Shown piece after piece: positions 427-55,963 of a stretch of DNA of 64,000 bases (position 1 is the first letter of the stretch; each line of letters opens with the position of its first letter). Under the pieces are notes generated by a model. The model saw only the letters and a program-made list of their open reading frames with translations. It was not told where the DNA came from and did not search any database. Origin of the DNA: Pseudomonas chlororaphis subsp. piscium (GTDB taxonomy: Bacteria; Pseudomonadota; Gammaproteobacteria; Pseudomonadales; Pseudomonadaceae). Made by a program: the position numbers and the translations under genes. Location: the NCBI RefSeq assembly GCF_003850345.1, contig NZ_CP027707.1:372001-436000 (forward strand), in the 5' to 3' direction.

Positions 427-482
427 GATGTCGCTCCGTTTACTGAGAGGGAGCTACCACGTTCGTTACCAAGCGAAGGGGT

Positions 483-663
483 GGCAGCTGTACGCAGGTT
501 GGTAAACCGGGGTAAACGAGCCCGGCAGACCCGAAGGTCTCCCGCGCACAGCCGCCATGACAAAATGGCAGGCGCAAAAAAAGCGCCTGCACTCGTCACG
601 GGGGGCGCTGTAGCGCCGTTTACTCATCGGGTTACCAAGCCCGGTCGTTGAATTTGCAACGAC
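483..663 (-). ncRNA. Structured 5' leader motif, copy 1 (candidate cis-regulatory RNA)
   Basis: Read on the minus strand, this leader folds into several hairpins that recur in the copy at 33505-33674. They are GTCGTTG/CAACGAC at 663-644, GCAGGCGC/GCGCCTGC around seven T at 590-568, a closing stem GGCGGCTGTGCG (556-545) with CGTACAGCTGCC (494-483), and inside it AGACC-TTCG-GGTCT (540-527) and CCGGG/CCCGG (525-507). The closing stem and inner hairpins make a three-way junction. The inner stem sequences differ between the copies yet stay paired, which supports RNA structure. The leader precedes the small ORF at 426 and the DUF3077 gene. The transcription start and ligand, if any, are unknown. 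Confidence 0.6.
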
Positions 664-768
664 GGGCGAGAGGTTAGCGTGGTGCTCGGTGGGCTGCAAC
701 AGCGGGCAAAGCAAAGTGACAATTCGGGGTCTAGGAGGTTTGTTGGCGACTTTGATTTATCAGGTCAC

Positions 769-1344: not shown

Positions 1345-2499
1345 ATGGCTGGCGACCCTTTCGCAGGACACCACTGCAAAGTCTGTTATGAACAAGCAAT
1401 GAAGGAAAAGAAGCGGTTCGATGCACTTTTGCGCGATGAACGCAGGCAACTCGTCAAGGCGCCACCGCTTCCTGCCGATCCCCCATCTCCTCCAGAAAAA
1501 AATCCCTCCCCCGTGCTCAGGGGCTGTGTTTTTGCCAAGTCCTGCACATTGCCGGATGGGGTTATAAATCACAGCAATCCTGGCGGATTTGTACCGGTCG
1601 AATCGTTGAAACAGTACGGCGCCTATGCAGTGCTGGGTACTGGTAGTGCAATATCCATTACCGGTACCGCTCTGCAATGGATTGGTGGTTCCAGTAACGC
1701 TGCAACCCTAGCAAGCCGCCTGGGAGGAACCTTGGCATTGGGCGTCGTCGAGGGCTGCGTAGGTGCACCTCTTCTGGTGGGGACGGTTGCGTTGCTGATG
1801 CCAGACATCACGTCAGCTGACAGTGCGTTTTACACGTCTGAGCAGTACGCACAGTTGAGCCAAGGCAACACACGGGTCCGGGTGAATGTTAAACACCTGC
1901 CAAACGGATCGGTCAGTATTTACGGGTTTTACACAGGGACGAAGAGTGAGTGGCAACGTGTGCCGGTAATCACTGCTCGGGTTCAAGGTGAACAGCTAGT
2001 GGCGGACATGGGGAACGGGATTGAAGTCATCTGGACTCCAGCAGCCGATCCCAGCGCGGTGTTGGGCATTCCTGCCTTGGAGGGGGCTGCGATGCAACCA
2101 GCAGCGTGGATCTATCCGCCGACCGAACAAGCCGACCGTATCCTGATTAATCCCGTACATCCTCCAGACTATCAAGACGCAATTATCTGGTTCCCTAACA
2201 CCGATATTCAGCCTATCTACATTTCACTGAGTGTATCGGGTAACCATCGCTACCATCTTGCACCTAAAGGGTTGGCGGCCTTTCCTGACGCCACCAAAGT
2301 CAATTCAAAAAGCAGGGTTCAGGGCGGTGGTAGCCTGCGTAGTCGTTGGAAGGATCGGAAAGGTCGAATTTACGAGTGGGACAGCCAGCATGGGGCAGTT
2401 GAAGTTTACGACAAACAGGGTAAGCACTTAGGTGAGTTTGACCCCATCACTGGCGAGCAAACCAAGCCCGCTGATCCAGGAAGAAAAGTCGAAAAATAG
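1345..2499 (+). CDS. Pyocin S-type protein with colicin E3-like 16S rRNase domain
   Basis: A 384-residue antibacterial toxin. Residues about 1-50 are a short charged, proline-rich head with HHCKVC. About 60-150 contain GCVFAKSCTLPDGVINH and a glycine-rich hydrophobic stretch. About 160-290 look like the S-type pyocin translocation domain. About 310-384 match the colicin E3/cloacin DF13 ribonuclease. In the last part GRIYEWDSQHGAVEVY keeps the catalytic Asp, His and Glu of the DSQHGxxE motif, and the Arg in DPGRKVEK fits the fourth active-site residue. Colicin E3 cleaves 16S rRNA in the decoding site. There is no receptor-binding or Ton-box region as in classical S pyocins, so release by lysis is uncertain; contact-dependent or T6SS delivery is possible. 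The start is ATG at 1345 after AGGAT. No LexA or PrtN-type site was seen upstream. Confidence 0.9.
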   Translation: MAGDPFAGHHCKVCYEQAMKEKKRFDALLRDERRQLVKAPPLPADPPSPPEKNPSPVLRGCVFAKSCTLPDGVINHSNPGGFVPVESLKQYGAYAVLGTGSAISITGTALQWIGGSSNAATLASRLGGTLALGVVEGCVGAPLLVGTVALLMPDITSADSAFYTSEQYAQLSQGNTRVRVNVKHLPNGSVSIYGFYTGTKSEWQRVPVITARVQGEQLVADMGNGIEVIWTPAADPSAVLGIPALEGAAMQPAAWIYPPTEQADRILINPVHPPDYQDAIIWFPNTDIQPIYISLSVSGNHRYHLAPKGLAAFPDATKVNSKSRVQGGGSLRSRWKDRKGRIYEWDSQHGAVEVYDKQGKHLGEFDPITGEQTKPADPGRKVEK

Positions 2500-30341: not shown

Positions 30342-31177
30342 TCGGATAGCCGTCTCATGGCGTGTCCAAGCGGTAGTTTCTTCTCTTGGACCAAAGTTTT
30401 TGCTTGTGACCATTTGGACCAGTTACCCGGAAACTCCCGATCAAAGAGGTTCAAGGTGGCGAAGAGGCTGACGTCTTCCGGCGTTTCAAGACCTTCCTTG
30501 CGGCCAGTGTCGATGGCTTTTTCTACTTGTGTCAGACGGTCGCCATGACAAGAACTGGTGAATACTTCCGGCGCCGAACGTTCTAGTTCGGTCACCAGGT
30601 TGTAGGCCAGTGGGTCCAGCTCCAAAGCCTGCCAAAGCTTGGCGTCGAGCGTGATGGGGTGATACTCCGACAGCTGTTTGTTGCAGCCGCCCTCGAAGCA
30701 TTGCCAGTCGTTGTCATCGGTTGGCAACCACCACTCTTTCAACGGGCCAAATAGCCAGGGATGCCAAGGCAGGTCTGGGCGATTGTGAAGCAGGGGCAAT
30801 ACTTCGGGGGCATAGCTGCGAATCAAAAAGACTTCTTCGACTTCATTCTTTGCCAGCAGCGCATCACTCAAATGCTCGTTCAACTGGTCGCCTGGACAAT
30901 CGGAGCTGATCCAGCCCATGAGCGCCTGGCGAACCGAAAACAATTCGTGGGTAGAAAACTCATCGAACGTAAGGTGGCTGACGTCGACCAGCCAGGGACC
31001 GTATTCGCGTAATTCAGCGAACTCGTTCTGACGCATGATGGAGCGCCGCGAAAAGTCCGATTTCAGGAAACGCGTGCGAGCCTCATCAGGAAGTAAACCT
31101 GCTTCGACAATGGCATAGCGCGGTTGTGCGTTTGATTGCGCGCTGGTCCAGGCTTGAGAGGCAGTTAGAGAGGTCAT
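30338..31177 (-). CDS. DUF4123 T6SS effector adaptor (Tap/TEC family)
   Basis: A 279-residue cytosolic adaptor. The N-terminal half has the DUF4123 pattern: RYAIVEAGLLPDEARTRF, YGPWLVDVSH, ALMGWISSDCPGDQLNEHLS and EEVFLIRSYAPEVLPLL. The C-terminal half is helical and may contact cargo. DUF4123 proteins load a specific effector onto the tip of the VgrG encoded beside them. The start is the ATG at 31177, overlapping the vgrG stop by 4 nt (ATGA), and the next gene overlaps its own stop, so the cassette is tightly coupled. Confidence 0.88.
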   Translation of the reverse strand: MTSLTASQAWTSAQSNAQPRYAIVEAGLLPDEARTRFLKSDFSRRSIMRQNEFAELREYGPWLVDVSHLTFDEFSTHELFSVRQALMGWISSDCPGDQLNEHLSDALLAKNEVEEVFLIRSYAPEVLPLLHNRPDLPWHPWLFGPLKEWWLPTDDNDWQCFEGGCNKQLSEYHPITLDAKLWQALELDPLAYNLVTELERSAPEVFTSSCHGDRLTQVEKAIDTGRKEGLETPEDVSLFATLNLFDREFPGNWSKWSQAKTLVQEKKLPLGHAMRRLSE

Positions 31178-33258
31178 GCAGGCTCCCCTGTTTGTAATGC
31201 AAGCTTTTGGCGTAATGCTTTTTTCCAGCACTCCACGCAAATACCCTTGGGCGGCGCCAGGCGCGGTATTGGCGCGTTCAAGCGACCCAGCAGCAGGCCG
31301 CCGGCCTTGTCGGCGTCGGCAAGCTTCAGCAACCCCGGAAGCAGTGCGGCAATGCCGGTTCCCACCCCCGGCGCGCCCCCGGAATTGATCTTCACATCGG
31401 CCCCGCTGATGATCACGCCACCGGCATCGAGCTTGACGAAGCTGCCACCGGCCTTGGCCGTCAGTTCGGCGCCGGCTTCCAGCACGGCTTTGCTCCCGGC
31501 CTTGTAGTGAATCTCCTGACCGGCTTCGACGAATTGCGCGGTGCCGATGTTGGCGTGCTGGGTGACGGCCACGGTGAGGTGGTCGTTGGCGCGGATTTCG
31601 CTCTTGCGGTCGAGGTGGGTGATGCGGTGTTCTTCGGCCTTGAGCTCGGTCAGGGTGTTGGCTTCGACTGTGTCGTGGCGTTCATTGCCGACGCGGATCC
31701 GCTGGTCGTGTTCGACGTTTTCGTCCCAGTCGCGCTGGGCGTGCAGGTAGATCTGCTCGGCGCCTTTCTTGTCTTCGATACGCAGTTCGTTATAGCCCTT
31801 GCCGCCCGGCGAGCTGAGGGTCTTGAAGGTGCTGCGGGTCTTGTTCGCCGGCAGGTCGTAGGGGACCACGTTTTCCTTGTGGTACAGGCAGCCGGTGACC
31901 AGGGGCTGGTCGGGGTCGCCTTCGAGGAAGGTCACCAGCACTTCCATGCCGATCCGCGGGATGGCGATGCCGCCGTAGGCCTTGCCGGCCCAGCCGCTGG
32001 CGACGCGAACCCAGCAGGAGGTGTTGTCATCGGCCTGGCCGTCGCGGTCCCAGTGGAACTGCACCTTGATCCGGCCGTACTGGTCGCAATGGATTTCTTC
32101 ACCCTTGGGCCCGGTGACCACGGCGGTCTGGCTGCCCAGGGACTTGGGTTTCGGGTGTTCCAGCGGCGGGCGATAGTGTGCGTCCCAAGGCGTGGCGAGG
32201 AAGCGGTTGCGGTAGCCCTGATGGAAATCGTCCTTGTTGCTGGTGACGTCGCTGGTGATGTTCTCGCCCAGCACTTGCGGCTGCTTGCCCTCGTGGATCA
32301 CTTCCAGCAGCAGCCACAGGTCGTTCCATTCGCTGCGCGGGTGGGCGGCCAGGGTCAGGAAGTGGCCGCTGACCAGGCTCGGCTCGTCGCCTTTGCCTTC
32401 GGCCAGCCGGTAGTCGCTGCGGTGGCGTTCCAGGGCGCGGGTTGCCAGTTGCTTGCCGCGGGCCTGCTGGGTGAACAGGCCGGGGTAGTCGTAGTCTTCC
32501 AGGTCCGGCATGACCCCGGACTTGGCCGCGCCCTCGGGCAGCAGGCGCGGTTTCTCGAAGTCGTAGTCGCGGCGGCTGACGCGGCTGGTGCGGGTTTCCA
32601 GGCGCAGGTTGAAGCGCTTGATCACCGGCTGTTCGGCGGCCATGCCGGAGTCCTGCTGGTAGTTCACCGCCGCCAGTTTGCGGAACACCGTCTGGTCGTC
32701 GCCGAATACCAGTTTGTGGCCGCTGGCCGAGTGCTGGAAGTGGAAGTGGATGCCTTCTTCTTCGCACAGGCGCTGGATGAAGTGCAGGTCGGATTCGTCG
32801 TACTGGGTGCAGTAGACCCGCTCCGGGTAGGTGGCGCCGAGCTGGAAACTGTAGGCGTCGGCCAGGATGCCGCGGGCCTCGAGGACCTGGGCGATGATCT
32901 TCGGCACGCTCAGGTGCTGGTAGATCTTCTGGTTGAAGCTGTGGCGCAGGTAGTTGAGCTGCGGGGTCAGGCTGATGCTGTAGCGGGTCAGCTTGCGCCC
33001 GGAGTCGCCCTGGGCGATGCGGTACACCAGGCCATGGATCAGGCCTTTGCCCGAGCTCTTGCCTAAACCGCCAAAGGTCAGGCAGGCCGGTCGGTGCAGC
33101 AGCTCTTCGAGCTTGAGGTCGGGACGCGCGCTGACCAGTTCGATATCAAAGCAGAAGGGTTGGTTGAGGGCTTCGCGGCCGACGAAACTGAGTACTTGAA
33201 GGTCGACCGAGGCGCCTTCGATCGTCAGGGAAATATGGGTAGCGTTAGCATCCAGCAT
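31174..33258 (-). CDS. vgrG: Type VI secretion spike protein VgrG
   Basis: About 694 residues, the trimeric puncturing spike of T6SS. The N-terminal gp27-like part runs from LSFVGREALNQPFCFDIELV through YPERVYCTQYDESDLHFIQR and LCEEEGIHFHFQHSASGHKL. The OB-fold region contains GEEIHCDQYGRIKVQFHWDR, CWVRVASGWAGKAYGGIAIP and RIGMEVLVTFLEGDPDQPLV. The C-terminal gp5-like needle has repeating segments (KSEIRANDHLTVAVTQHANI) and DUF2345-type GSKAVLEAGAELTAKAGGSF. A tail of about 55 residues with ICVECWKKALRQ follows and may dock the cargo. The start is placed at 33258 (MLDANATHISLTIEG); ATG codons at 33276 and further upstream are possible. First gene of the island operon. Confidence 0.95.
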   Translation of the reverse strand: MLDANATHISLTIEGASVDLQVLSFVGREALNQPFCFDIELVSARPDLKLEELLHRPACLTFGGLGKSSGKGLIHGLVYRIAQGDSGRKLTRYSISLTPQLNYLRHSFNQKIYQHLSVPKIIAQVLEARGILADAYSFQLGATYPERVYCTQYDESDLHFIQRLCEEEGIHFHFQHSASGHKLVFGDDQTVFRKLAAVNYQQDSGMAAEQPVIKRFNLRLETRTSRVSRRDYDFEKPRLLPEGAAKSGVMPDLEDYDYPGLFTQQARGKQLATRALERHRSDYRLAEGKGDEPSLVSGHFLTLAAHPRSEWNDLWLLLEVIHEGKQPQVLGENITSDVTSNKDDFHQGYRNRFLATPWDAHYRPPLEHPKPKSLGSQTAVVTGPKGEEIHCDQYGRIKVQFHWDRDGQADDNTSCWVRVASGWAGKAYGGIAIPRIGMEVLVTFLEGDPDQPLVTGCLYHKENVVPYDLPANKTRSTFKTLSSPGGKGYNELRIEDKKGAEQIYLHAQRDWDENVEHDQRIRVGNERHDTVEANTLTELKAEEHRITHLDRKSEIRANDHLTVAVTQHANIGTAQFVEAGQEIHYKAGSKAVLEAGAELTAKAGGSFVKLDAGGVIISGADVKINSGGAPGVGTGIAALLPGLLKLADADKAGGLLLGRLNAPIPRLAPPKGICVECWKKALRQKLALQTGEPA

Positions 33259-33504
33259 GCCGTGAAATCCATCCATTGAATAAGCAGGGGGCGGATGGTG
33301 TCGCAATCAACTAGCAGGCTCAAGTCAGCAGAGGGCTTGAATTCGCTATGGGCGAATAAATCAGATGGTTCCTACAGGTCTTTTCCGGTCCGTCTTACTG
33401 GGGTCGATAACGCCTTGTGGATAAGTACTGTCAGCGCCCTGATCGCTGTTACGTCCGGTCACTGACTGAGGATTGTGCTGAATGGGGAGGCCTGCTTACC
33501 CTGT

Positions 33505-33674
33505 GTCGGTCGCTGCCAAATCAGCGGCCGGGTGTAGGAACCCGCCTTACGATACGTACAGCTTCCGAGTAGAATCGGCCGCTTTTCGCCGCCTGTCTGT
33601 TATGGCGGCTGTACGTAGGCACGCTTTGGCGTGACCGGATCGTGTAGCCGGTTCCTACCCTGCGTACAGCTGCC
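33505..33674 (+). ncRNA. Structured 5' leader motif, copy 2
   Basis: The same hairpin series as 663-483 on the minus strand: CGCTG/CAGCG around ccaaat (33511-33526), GGCCGC/GCCGCC around TTTTC (33577-33593), a 12-bp closing stem GGCGGCTGTACG (33604-33615) with CGTACAGCTGCC (33663-33674), and inside it CACGC-TTTG-GCGTG (33620-33633) and ACCGG/CCGGT (33634-33652). Stem P2 is AGACC/GGTCT in the other copy, a full change with pairing kept. The next ATG is 57 nt downstream, as in copy 1. Located inside the island between vgrG and the right repeat. Confidence 0.6.
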
Positions 33675-33730
33675 ACCCACCTTTTAGGAGGGGCTGGTGG
33701 TAGCTCAATTTTACGCACGGAGCTACATCA

Positions 33731-51376: not shown

Positions 51377-51464
51377 GTAGGAGCGAGGCTTGCCCGCGAT
51401 GGGGCCGGCGCGAAACGTCTGAAGCACCGCGTTATCCTTCATCGCGAGCAAGCTTCGCTTCTAC
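51377..51464. repeat. REP pair
   Basis: A direct REP copy from 51377 (gtaggagcgaggcttgcccg) and an inverted variant copy (tcgcgagcaagcttcgcttc) ending near 51464, between convergent secB and trmL. Confidence 0.88.
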
Positions 51465-51470
51465 AGAGGC

Positions 51471-51926
51471 TTATTTGAACCCCAGCTGGCGCCAGGCTTC
51501 GTAGACGGCCACCGCCACGGTGTTGGACAGGTTCAGGCTGCGGCAGCCTTCGCGCATGGGCAGGCGCAGGCGTTGTTCGGCGGGCAGGGCCTCCAGCACT
51601 TCGGCGGGCAGGCCGCGGCTTTCCGGGCCGAACAGGAAGGCATCGCCTTCGGCGAAGCTGGCGTCGTGGAAAGGTCGCGAGCCCTTGGTGGTGAAGGCGA
51701 ACAGGCGCGGATGGCCTAGGCTTTCAAGACAGCTGGCGAGGTCGGCATGGCGTTGCAGGGTGGCATATTCGTGGTAGTCGAGGCCGGCCCGGCGCAGGCG
51801 CTTGTCGTCCATTTCGAAACCCAGTGGCTCGATCAAATGCAGGTGGCAGCCGCTATTGGCGCACAGCCTGATTACGTTGCCGGTATTCGGCGGAATTTCT
51901 GGTTGAAAAAGGATGACGTGAAACAT
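51471..51926 (-). CDS. trmL: tRNA (cytidine(34)-2'-O)-methyltransferase
   Basis: A 151-residue SPOUT methyltransferase that 2'-O-methylates the wobble base of tRNA-Leu. The trefoil-knot motifs are present: EIPPNTGNVIRLCANSGCHL (about 10-29), AFLFGPESRGLPAEVL (about 96-111) and LRLPMREGCRSLNLSNTVAV (about 120-139). The length matches TrmL. Its ATG (51926-51924) overlaps by two bases the ATG of a divergent gene (51925-51927), so the two start codons share the palindrome CATG. Confidence 0.96.
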   Translation of the reverse strand: MFHVILFQPEIPPNTGNVIRLCANSGCHLHLIEPLGFEMDDKRLRRAGLDYHEYATLQRHADLASCLESLGHPRLFAFTTKGSRPFHDASFAEGDAFLFGPESRGLPAEVLEALPAEQRLRLPMREGCRSLNLSNTVAVAVYEAWRQLGFK

Positions 51927-52365
51927 GCACGGCTCCGAAGAAAAAGACAGGCCGCATTCTACGCCTGAAGCGGACTCCAGGCCGAAGCTAATGCTGCGGG
52001 TGTTCGGCTCGCTGGCGATCTTTGGCGTGATGGTCGGGCTGATGATCGGTCGCCTGACGACCCCGGACCCCACCGAGCTGCAGGACGTGCAGGTCCAGCC
52101 CAATGCCCTGGTGGTGTGGTTCAACAACGAGCCCAAAGTCCATGGCGAGCACGTCGACGGGGCCGTGGCGCTGCTGTTCGAAGCCGAGGGGCGAGCGCAG
52201 AAGGGCCAGTTGAAGATCAACGACAAGGATGCCAACTGGCGGGTGCGGGCGGCTAAGGAAGGGTTGCTGCTGAACGTGGTCGCGGCGCGGGCGCTGCACG
52301 CCGAGTGGTCGGGCAGCGAGGTCGACGGGCGCTGGCGCCTGGAAGTCCAGCTGCGCGAGGAATAA
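51925..52365 (+). CDS. Conserved membrane-anchored protein
   Basis: A 146-residue protein with a hydrophilic N-terminus, one membrane helix (LRVFGSLAIFGVMVGLMIGR, about 24-43) and a periplasmic beta-rich domain (LQDVQVQPNALVVWFNNEPK, GAVALLFEAEGRAQKGQLKI). Function unknown. If the ATG at 51925 is used, it overlaps the trmL start head to head; an alternative ATG at 51991 would begin just before the helix. The gene is followed directly by the tandem array at 52364, which would form its 3' untranslated region. Confidence 0.75.
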   Translation: MHGSEEKDRPHSTPEADSRPKLMLRVFGSLAIFGVMVGLMIGRLTTPDPTELQDVQVQPNALVVWFNNEPKVHGEHVDGAVALLFEAEGRAQKGQLKINDKDANWRVRAAKEGLLLNVVAARALHAEWSGSEVDGRWRLEVQLREE

Positions 52366-52757
52366 AAGAGGGGATTCCCGGCCTGCCTGTACCAAGGTCC
52401 CCAAAAGCGTGAGGGCGGGGCGCTGATTGCGCCGGGCCCGGTGTAAAGAGGGGAAGCCCCGGCCTGCCTGTACCAAGGTTCCCAAAAGCGTGGGGGCAGC
52501 GCTGATTGCGCTGGGCCCGGTGTAAAGAGGGAATCCCCGGCCTGCCTGTACCAAGGTTCCCGAAACGGGTGGGGCTCGTCGCTGTGAGCGTGATGAGCCC
52601 GGGTGTTAAAGAGGGAATCCCTGGCCTGCCTGTACCAGGGTTCCCCAAACCGGGTGGAACCCGTCGCTGCGAGCGGTATGGGTTCCGGGTGTAAAGAAGG
52701 GGATTCTCGGCCTGCCTGTACCAAGGTCCCCAAAACGGGTGAGTGACTGCACTCGTG
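52364..52757 (+). repeat. Five tandem units of about 80 bp with covarying hairpins
   Basis: The conserved core GGCCTGCCTGTACCAAGG (one copy reads CAGGG) occurs at 52380, 52461, 52539, 52623 and 52709, spaced 81, 78, 84 and 86 bases, each preceded by taaagagggaatccc-like sequence. Each unit then carries a hairpin whose arms differ but pair: GGCGC/GCGCC (52419-52433), CAGCGC/GCGCTG (52497-52513), GGGCTC/GAGCCC (52572-52600), GGAACCC/GGGTTCC (52656-52686) and GAGTG/CACTC (52741-52754). The array starts at the stop codon of the upstream gene and ends before the terminator at 52825. No coding role is supported. Confidence 0.85.
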
Positions 52758-52824
52758 ATCTTGTCTTTGCAGGGGGCGTGCCAATTCTGGCTTAAACGGT
52801 TAAGCGAATTTTCAAGAAATGCTG

Positions 52825-52848
52825 AAAGCCCCGGTTTACGGGGCTTTT
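52825..52848 (+). terminator. Terminator after the tandem array
   Basis: GCCCCG (52828-52833) pairs with CGGGGC (52839-52844), flanked by AAA and TTTT. It would end a transcript that runs through the upstream gene and the repeat array. Confidence 0.85.
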
Positions 52849-52959
52849 GTCGTTCTATGGATTTGTTCTTGCCGGTAATGTCGACGGCGTCTGAGCTGAA
52901 ATCCCATGCCCGGCCACGCATTTCGGCAGTGCAGGCTCACCATTGCGGTGCACAAAAAG

Positions 52960-53023
52960 CATCGCGGGCAAGCCTCGCTCCTACAGAACACCTTCATCTG
53001 CAGGAGCGAGGCTTGCCCGCGAT
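52960..53023. repeat. REP pair (inverted)
   Basis: Two head-to-head REP copies with the spacer acaccttcatctgc, nearly identical to 24770-24830. Confidence 0.9.
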
Positions 53024-53059
53024 TGGCTCTGTCACTCGACACAGCACGAATGCCTTGCA

Positions 53060-53162
53060 CTGTAGCCACTGCCGCAGGCTGCGATCGCGACCGAAGGGCG
53101 CGCAGGATCTCAAGATCGCTGAAGGCCTTCGGCCTTATCGCAGCCTGCGGCAGCGGCTACAG
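53060..53162. repeat. GC-rich palindromic repeat of the second family
   Basis: Starts ctgtagccactgccgcagg and ends cctgcggcagcggctacagg, long inverted arms with further internal palindromes. Same family as 24875-24978. With 52960-53023 it fills the gap between the terminator and ntrC. Confidence 0.8.
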
Positions 53163-53174
53163 GCTTACAGCGGC

Positions 53175-54607
<1,433 letters not shown>

Positions 54608-54611
<4 letters not shown>

Positions 54612-55693
54612 GTCGATGGGGCTCCTTGTTCCAGTGGCAGAAAGATCGAGAACGTGGTGTGGCCGGGATGGCTGTCACACTCGATCAGGCCCTGGTGCTG
54701 GCTGATGATGTTCTGGGTAATGGCCAGGCCCAGCCCGGTACCGTCCGGACGACCGCTGACCATGGGGAAGAAGATGGTTTCCTGGAGTTCCGCGGGGATC
54801 CCCGGGCCGTTGTCGATGATCTCGATCTTGGTCACCAGGCGGTGGCGCACATGGCCGATGGTGAACTGGCGCATGGTGCGGGTACGCAGGCAGATACGGC
54901 CCAGGCGCAGCTCGTTCTGGCTGCTGATGGCCTGCATCGCGTTGCGCACGATGTTGAGCACCGCCTGGATCATCTGTTCGCGGTCGATCAATACATCGGG
55001 AATGCTTGGGTCGTAGTCGCGCACCAGGGTGATGCAGCCCTGGCTTTCGGCTTCCACCAGGCTGCTCACGCGCTCCAGCACTTCGTGCACGTTGCACAGG
55101 GCCAGCGACGGCAGCTTGTTGGAGCCGAGCATGCGGTCCACCAGGTTACGCAGGCGGTCGGCCTCTTCGATGATGACGTTGGTGTAGTCCTTGAGGTTCT
55201 CGTCCGGCAGTTCGCGGGCCAGCAGCTGGGCGGCGCCGCGAATCCCGCCGAGGGGGTTCTTGATCTCGTGGGCCAGGCCGCGCACCAGCATCTTGCTGGT
55301 TTCCTGCTTGGACAGCTGGGCCTCTTCCTTGGTGATCCGCAGCAGGCGGTCGCGGGGGTGGACTTCCAGCAACAGCAGGGTGTCGCCATTGCTCAGGATC
55401 GGCGTCACGGCGTAGTCCACGGTCAGGGTCTGGCCGGTCAGCGCGGTGAGCATGGCCTCGCGCTTGGTGAACGGGTGCGCCTGTTGCACCGCCTGGCGCA
55501 GGGAGCTCAGGGCTTCGGCCGATTCGGTGAACAGTTCGCTGATGAATTGCCCATGGCTGCGCTGGCCACTGATAGCCAGCAACATCTCCGCCGCCGGGTT
55601 CATGTACTCAAGGCGCAGGTCGGCGTTGAGCAGGATGGTCGCGGTGGTCAGGTTGTCGAGTAGCAAGCGGTGCAATTGATCGCTGATGGTCAT
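54608..55693 (-). CDS. ntrB: Nitrogen regulation sensor kinase NtrB
   Basis: A 361-residue cytosolic histidine kinase/phosphatase of NtrC, controlled by PII. A PAS domain (about 10-110; TTATILLNADLRLEYMNPAA) precedes the H-box RGLAHEIKNPLGGIRGAAQL (about 133-152), then the N-box IVRNAMQAI, and GRPDGTGLGLAITQNIIS in the ATP lid. No membrane segments, as expected. The start is the ATG at 55693 after AGGACC. Upstream lie a sigma-54-type promoter and an NtrC site, so the pair is probably autoregulated. Confidence 0.96.
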
Positions 55694-55748
55694 TAGGACC
55701 TCTTTTGGAGCATGGCGCGCGCGTGGACAGAGCGCTGTCATCGGGAAA

Positions 55749-55766
55749 ATGCAAAAACCAAACCAA
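55749..55766 (-). promoter_or_regulatory. Sigma-54 promoter of ntrBC
   Basis: On the minus strand TTGGTTTGGTTTTTGCAT has GG and GC exactly 12 bases apart, with TTGCA at the -12 side. It lies about 56 bases before ntrB. The -24 part is weaker than consensus (TTGGTTT in place of TTGGCAC). Confidence 0.55.
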
Positions 55767-55891
55767 GGCTCCGAAAAGAAGCGCCCGCGCCCTGAAACAG
55801 CCGTTTGAAGTGCTCTTTCGCAGCGTTTTGCCGGCTTGGCTGGGTACTTTCGAACCAAAATGGGCTGCGGATGAATGAAGGTGCAGCTTGA

Positions 55892-55908
55892 TGCACCAAT
55901 ATAGTGCG
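55892..55908. promoter_or_regulatory. NtrC binding site upstream of ntrB
   Basis: TGCACCAATATAGTGCG closely follows the NtrC consensus TGCACC-N4-TGGTGCA and resembles the strong E. coli glnA enhancer site. It lies about 125-155 bases upstream of the sigma-54 promoter, a normal enhancer distance. A neighbouring GGTGCA (55880-55885) forms a second inverted arrangement with the same TGCACC. Confidence 0.6.
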
Positions 55909-55963
55909 ATTTCTTTGGCGGTGCGCTAAAGAATGGCCAGGGCCAAAGGTGCAGAGCCAACGC

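Follow-up and report, generated by a model that had tools for sequence, protein, structure and literature searches.

In Pseudomonas aeruginosa PAO1, the small RNA (sRNA) gene nrsZ occupies the spacer between ntrC and PA5126 and is induced by NtrB/C together with RpoN, as stated in review passages on NrsZ. These passages give the transcript a length of about 226 nt, describe its processing into shorter RNAs, assign function to the first 60 nt and report activation of rhlA; a review excerpt gives ACAGGCAG as the conserved motif of NrsZ. In the part of an Hfq cross-linking study that deals with NrsZ, its enrichment was higher in planktonic cells, without significance. REP and REPIN sequences also place repeated hairpins in intergenic spacers of Pseudomonas. 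CrcZ/CrcX-type sRNAs carry repeated motifs, and CrcZ sequesters a protein through A-rich motifs. Like NrsZ, they are Pseudomonas sRNAs under a two-component system, CrcZ being the one named in a review excerpt.

The window analysed here is a stretch of 64,000 nt from the chromosome of P. chlororaphis subsp. piscium (NZ_CP027707.1, positions 372,001 to 436,000). A sequence-only reading had noticed five tandem units in it, and five copies were confirmed in 52350-52750, at spacings of 81, 78, 84 and 86 nt. The array is almost certainly nrsZ, the gene of the nitrogen-regulated trans-acting sRNA, on the minus strand and with five units. NrsZ is a known kind of RNA, of which this is a five-unit member, and a puzzling repeat is resolved as the counterpart of a studied Pseudomonas regulator.

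Identity and structure of the array

The sequence-only reading had found no named family that fits. The Rfam model of NrsZ, RF02695, does fit: it matched the minus strand at 52353-52571 with 140.2 bits and at 52596-52766 with 94.4 bits (cut-off 76.9). The array is hit twice because the model covers three units only; the 236 positions of the model comprise three cores and, within the consensus structure, two linker hairpins. No Rfam family besides NrsZ was found in 52200-53000 at E ≤ 1.

Read on the minus strand, every unit has GGTACAGGCAGGCC at the centre of its stem-loop, and hairpin-forming linkers join the units (Table 1). This 14-mer from the core occurs exactly five times in the 7.07 Mb genome, always within the array and on the minus strand. 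The array differs from REP/REPIN sequences in that dispersed genomic copies are absent and the core is confined to one locus, which bears out the earlier rejection of a REP element. The motif ACAGGCAG is present in five of five units, its placement in the loop being a prediction. The core is made up of the loop and arms of a second hairpin, which the sequence-only reading did not name and which is more conserved than the linker hairpin; the 18-base core that was said to be the same throughout is identical in four units and has one change in the unit at 52613-52646. All five arm pairs described for the variable hairpins are present (at 52419/52429, 52497/52508, 52572/52595, 52656/52680 and 52741/52750). 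To call these arms completely different was an overstatement, as several units have a GGGCYC-type arm in common. Folding of the whole length of the minus strand gave a z-score of -2.23, with 2 of 100 shuffles as good, which is moderate only, and the best minus-strand fold mixes units.

The array shares with PAO1 NrsZ the ntrC/PA5126-position spacer, the sigma54/NtrC-type control region, the ACAGGCAG loops, the repeated stem-loops and the linker hairpins. It differs in having five units and about 395 nt, compared with about 226 nt in PAO1 and three units in the Rfam model. In the window, ntrC was identified by TIGR01818, and the same-strand order upstream of the array is ntrC, then ntrB. The ntrC product is likely the activator of nrsZ; the true start of ntrB is probably inside the ORF, the profile match running from residue 96. 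The convergent gene on the other side is a candidate homologue of PA5126 by position rather than by comparison with PAO1. A homologue of this gene lies beside an NrsZ core in all 80 named loci, which are the best 80 of 140 reached via the convergent gene; because they were ranked by the likeness of that gene, close relatives are over-represented in this set.

Table 1 Features of the nrsZ locus, in window positions
Feature	Position	Strand	Remarks
NrsZ transcript, five units	52363..52757	-	predicted, with both ends inferred, the start from a distance of about 12 nt to the -12 element and the end from the T-tract
Unit 1 core stem-loop	52699..52731	-	loop TACAGGCAGG
Unit 2 core stem-loop	52613..52646	-	
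Unit 3 core stem-loop	52529..52561	-	
Unit 4 core stem-loop	52450..52483	-	
Unit 5 core stem-loop	52370..52402	-	with the following TCTTTTATT, likely terminator
Leader hairpin	52741..52754	-	GAGTG/CACTC
Linker hairpin, units 1-2	52656..52686	-	GGAACCC/GGGTTCC; covariation support
Linker hairpin, units 2-3	52572..52600	-	GGGCTC/GAGCCC
Linker hairpin, units 3-4	52497..52513	-	CAGCGC/GCGCTG
Linker hairpin, units 4-5	52419..52433	-	GGCGC/GCGCC
Sigma54-type -24/-12 element	52783-52768	-	TGGCACGCCCCCTGCA; sole match in 64 kb
Possible NtrC-type palindrome	52936..52952	-	TGCACCGCAATGGTGAG; about 170 bp further upstream than the sigma54-type element
ntrC, nitrogen regulator NR(I)	53175..54611	-	TIGR01818, 796 bits (cut-off 558.6)
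ntrB, nitrogen sensor NR(II), ORF	54608..55960	-	NF008293, 393.6 bits (cut-off 240)
Convergent gene, PA5126 position	51925..52365	+	without family match
Hairpin GCCCCGGTTTACGGGGC then TTTT	52829..52848	+	possible terminator of the convergent gene

Promoter and upstream elements

A putative sigma54 promoter lies directly upstream of the array, as recognised by its pattern. Its sequence is one base off what we take to be the usual sigma54 consensus, the -12 half being CTGC where the consensus has TTGC. Shuffles of the window contain at least one match to the pattern in 34 of 100 cases, so the weight of the element comes from its recurrence in relatives and not from the lone match in the window. 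A sigma54-type element was found 5' of the first core in 35 of the 36 loci of the genus set (at most two mismatches); at the remaining locus, L036, inspection of the Rfam site by eye shows a single unit and the element as TGGCACGGCACCTGCA. Among the named loci (best 80 of 140), 77 have the element before the first core with at most one mismatch. The loci without a match are L116, L117 and L046, the last being interrupted by a contig end.

In 27 of 35 loci, a palindrome of the form TGCACC-N5-(GG/AA)TGCA, with at most two mismatches, precedes the first core by 120-240 nt, compared with a mononucleotide-shuffle rate of 1%. By its consensus, this type of palindrome is a candidate NtrC site. A sigma70 scan of 51400-53400 gave no match. 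Inverted repeats of the GCGGGCAAGCCTCGCTCCTAC and GCCGCAGGCTGCGATCG types, REP/REPIN-like by eye, lie at about 52955-53165 between ntrC and the nrsZ control region; the name REP for them is our presumption.

Transcript ends and the opposite strand

The last stem-loop and its T-tract probably end transcription of nrsZ. Among the 12 bases sampled beyond the core, TTTT is present in 110 of the 116 last units and in 21 of the 240 internal ones. In the window, the TAA of the gene at 51925-52365 overlaps the T-tract, the bases being common to both. In all 80 named loci (best 80 of 140) the TAA of the convergent gene is 14-18 nt from the last core 14-mer, and in 72 of them the distance is exactly 15 nt. 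A simple terminator scan of 51400-53400 listed no minus-strand terminator; it listed three plus-strand sites, including 52735-52756, where shuffles give 2.5, and the plus-strand hairpin at 52829 was not among them.

The sequence-only reading had followed the plus strand and had offered a structured 3' untranslated region of the gene at 51925-52365 as one identity for the array. The array does start at the stop codon of this gene, and past it, at 52829-52848, stands a terminator-like hairpin, and 86 of 115 loci have a motif like it; the plus strand also has the terminator-like site at 52735-52756 and folds below shuffles, with a z-score of -3.11 over a longer stretch than in the minus-strand test. 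However, three things point to the minus strand: it carries the sigma54-type element, Rfam matches in that orientation, and the last core is followed there by a T-tract. The plus-strand z-score is expected because hairpins fold on either strand, and the number of terminator-like sites in the scan is close to that in shuffles. A 3' untranslated region is thus very improbable as the identity of the array: the gene is convergent with it, though its transcript could run antisense through it. The broader proposal of a structured RNA element is supported.

Antisense transcription across nrsZ may occur. NrsZ could act in trans while read-through from the convergent gene, as an antisense RNA, titrates or cuts it; this would be an addition to the identification as nrsZ and not a replacement, and we consider it rather unlikely. 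It is favoured by the narrow range of distances from the TAA to the last core in the named loci and by the plus-strand hairpin with its T-run on the far side of the nrsZ promoter, for which the mononucleotide-shuffle rate is 1.6%. The fixed spacing may, however, reflect compactness alone, and ntrC may be the gene served by the hairpin, whose motif 74 of 115 loci also have on the opposite strand.

Distribution and number of units

With RF02695 at E ≤ 0.001, NrsZ was found in 36 of 36 genomes of the genus, the window's own included, in none of 21 others of the order and in none of 14 controls, in a search whose stricter filters lost some weak matches; the family cut-off was exceeded in 24 of 57 genomes. 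The array thus recurs in other genomes, which the sequence-only reading had proposed as a check. The 36 genus genomes have one unit per locus in 12 cases, two in 6, three in 12, four in 2 and five in 4. The 80 named loci have one unit in 1 case, two in 10, three in 51, four in 7, five in 5, six in 3, seven in 1 and eight in 2, the count of two for L046 being a minimum because of the contig end. The two sets probably overlap, since L004 and L101 lie on equally long contigs, as do L012 and L106. The closest relatives among the named loci (best 80 of 140) are Pseudomonas sp. NFIX28, with four units, and PCL1601, filed as P. chlororaphis, with five. The eight-unit arrays, L092 and L111, belong to Pseudomonas sp. 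TH31 and P. fluorescens PS862, and their linkers are mostly near-identical. A search of plasmids by near identity gave no match.

NrsZ is thus found at a fixed locus with 1 to 8 units across one genus, and its linkers show compensatory changes. Such a natural series lends itself to studying the role of the linkers and a possible link between copy number and how strongly an sRNA acts. The literature passages on NrsZ that were covered, a set that does not include the original description (Wenner et al. 2014), make no mention of variation in unit number, and the variation from 1 to 8 is not claimed here as new.

Pairing in the linkers

The four complete linkers of the window have folding z-scores of -2.2 to -3.6, and 0.4% to 3.2% of shuffles fold as well. 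Across 202 unique linkers, taken from the 103 of 116 loci with at least two units, the mean z-score is -2.71, compared with +0.55 for 240 downstream control segments. The pairing is better than in shuffled sequence, where the opposite had been named as grounds for rejecting the structure.

Covariation was assessed on first linkers, selected for an alignment with few gaps: 61 distinct linkers with a first spacing of 81-86 nt, other spacings being excluded. For L046, which is cut by a contig end, a linker other than the true first one was used. In the nine-pair hairpin, 98.4% of cells pair, compared with 94.3% in shuffles, and 19 cells have changes on both sides, compared with a shuffle mean of 2.0; neither value was reached by any of 500 shuffles, which ignore relatedness. 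When the partner was shifted by 1 to 3 columns, pairing fell to 32-42%. Two weaker counts on the same linkers and shuffles were the number of pairs with a both-side change (4 vs 1.6, reached by 8 of 500 shuffles) and the number of further pair types (11 vs 8.6, reached by 11 of 500). With a seventh outer pair included, which few rows have, the paired share falls to 89.8% on the 61 linkers; on 30 of them it was 97.8%, with 16 both-side changes. From these 30, a hand-picked subset of the 61, RNAalifold found the same hairpin unprompted, with four pairs showing both-side change. Applied to 45 of 194 distinct units, RNAalifold found the core stem and no linker hairpin, a miss ascribed to misalignment.

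Exchange of arms gave a test that is only moderately discriminating. In the window's 5x5 matrix of swapped arms, the own partner is best or tied in three of five rows. Over 188 of the 202 unique linkers (the 14 shorter than 30 nt were excluded), own arms gave -16.2 kcal/mol and swapped arms -13.1 kcal/mol, own arms beat all 60 swaps in 23 of 188, and the median rank was 0.19. On the evidence of the z-scores and of covariation the linker pairing is judged to be real; it looks selected and appears to have been kept through compensatory change, as the sequence-only reading had suggested.

A role for the linkers as insulators against mispairing of the cores was considered and is not supported by the folding of 40 arrays, drawn from the 81 with three to five units and including that of the window. 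Core pairs had a mean probability of 0.359 when the linkers were native, 0.401 when they were shuffled and 0.523 when they were all A; native linkers beat shuffled ones in 15 of 40 arrays (Wilcoxon p 0.038), in the direction opposite to the insulator idea, in a global folding that ignores co-transcriptional folding.

Divergence and copying of units

The linkers of the window have diverged, with a mean similarity of 0.66, and on average they are closer to their positional counterparts in the two nearest named relatives, L042 and L043, than to each other. Linker 1 has similarities of 0.94 and 0.88 to its counterparts in L042 and L043, and linker 2 of 0.88 and 0.86; linkers 3 and 4 are both most similar to the last linker of L042, which has four units (0.81 and 0.84). 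Elsewhere, linkers are near-identical within an array, at 0.91-0.96 in L044, L092 and L111, which indicates that units were recently amplified or homogenised there. Duplication therefore occurs, yet the array of the window is no fresh copy. The suggestion that the units had been copied with correction fits poorly with this pattern.

These similarities also bear on an alternative origin of the array, as a neutral tandem repeat that was amplified recently and whose copies gene conversion keeps alike. The near-identical linkers of L044, L092 and L111 and the copy number of 1 to 8 would agree with such an origin. The window's linkers, however, have kept their pairing while diverging and resemble their positional counterparts more than one another, loci across the genus share the core and the promoter element, and covariation on the 61 linkers disfavours neutrality. 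A neutral repeat is hardly credible.

In L014, a five-unit nrsZ array at 1523-1740 has an exact 43-nt period with no room for linker hairpins, and linkers appear dispensable in at least this one lineage. The within-array linker similarity of 1.00 calculated for L014 was discarded as an artefact of 3-nt stretches.

Proposed mode of action

Under nitrogen limitation, NtrC and sigma54 would start transcription near 52757 on the minus strand, as the promoter element and the P. aeruginosa system suggest. The transcript of about 395 nt would present five near-identical stem-loops, each with ACAGGCAG in its loop, separated by variable paired linker hairpins, and the last stem-loop with its T-tract would probably stop transcription. 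The P. aeruginosa system suggests by analogy that the RNA is processed into shorter fragments and that a fragment with a single stem-loop can act on a target mRNA; contact would likely be through pairing by ACAGGCAG. NrsZ may be an expandable RNA concatemer. In this view, each transcript would yield active pieces in a dose given by its number of units, which is 1 to 8 between species. Selection would keep the linker hairpins, perhaps to signal where the RNA is cut, and, with a terminator tail found almost only on the last unit, inner units could be gained or lost without harm to the ends. We offer this model tentatively, as one that may well prove wrong.

A seed-complement scan of the genome gave no clear NrsZ target. 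The motif ACAGGCAG occurs 259 times in the genome, compared with 115 for the reversed control, which is too many for a target search. The loop sequence TACAGGCAGG occurs 25 times (control 5), of which 5 are in nrsZ; at 2 of the 20 sites outside nrsZ an ORF start lies within -40 to +70 of the complement, a count made without a control.

Other structured RNAs in the window

Two C4 antisense RNAs were observed elsewhere in the window. At the first locus (477-677, minus strand, and 1345-2499, plus strand), a C4 antisense RNA and its a1/b1 target element occur with an isrK match, in the vicinity of a gene for an S-type pyocin with Pyocin_S and Cytotoxic domains. The second C4 antisense RNA, with an a1/b1 pair, is at 33496-33680 on the plus strand and adjoins the minus-strand gene at 31174-33306, which encodes a VgrG-like baseplate hub protein (Phage_GPD, Gp5 trimerisation and Phage_base_V). 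The presence of two C4 copies in 64 kb of Pseudomonas chromosome may merit attention.
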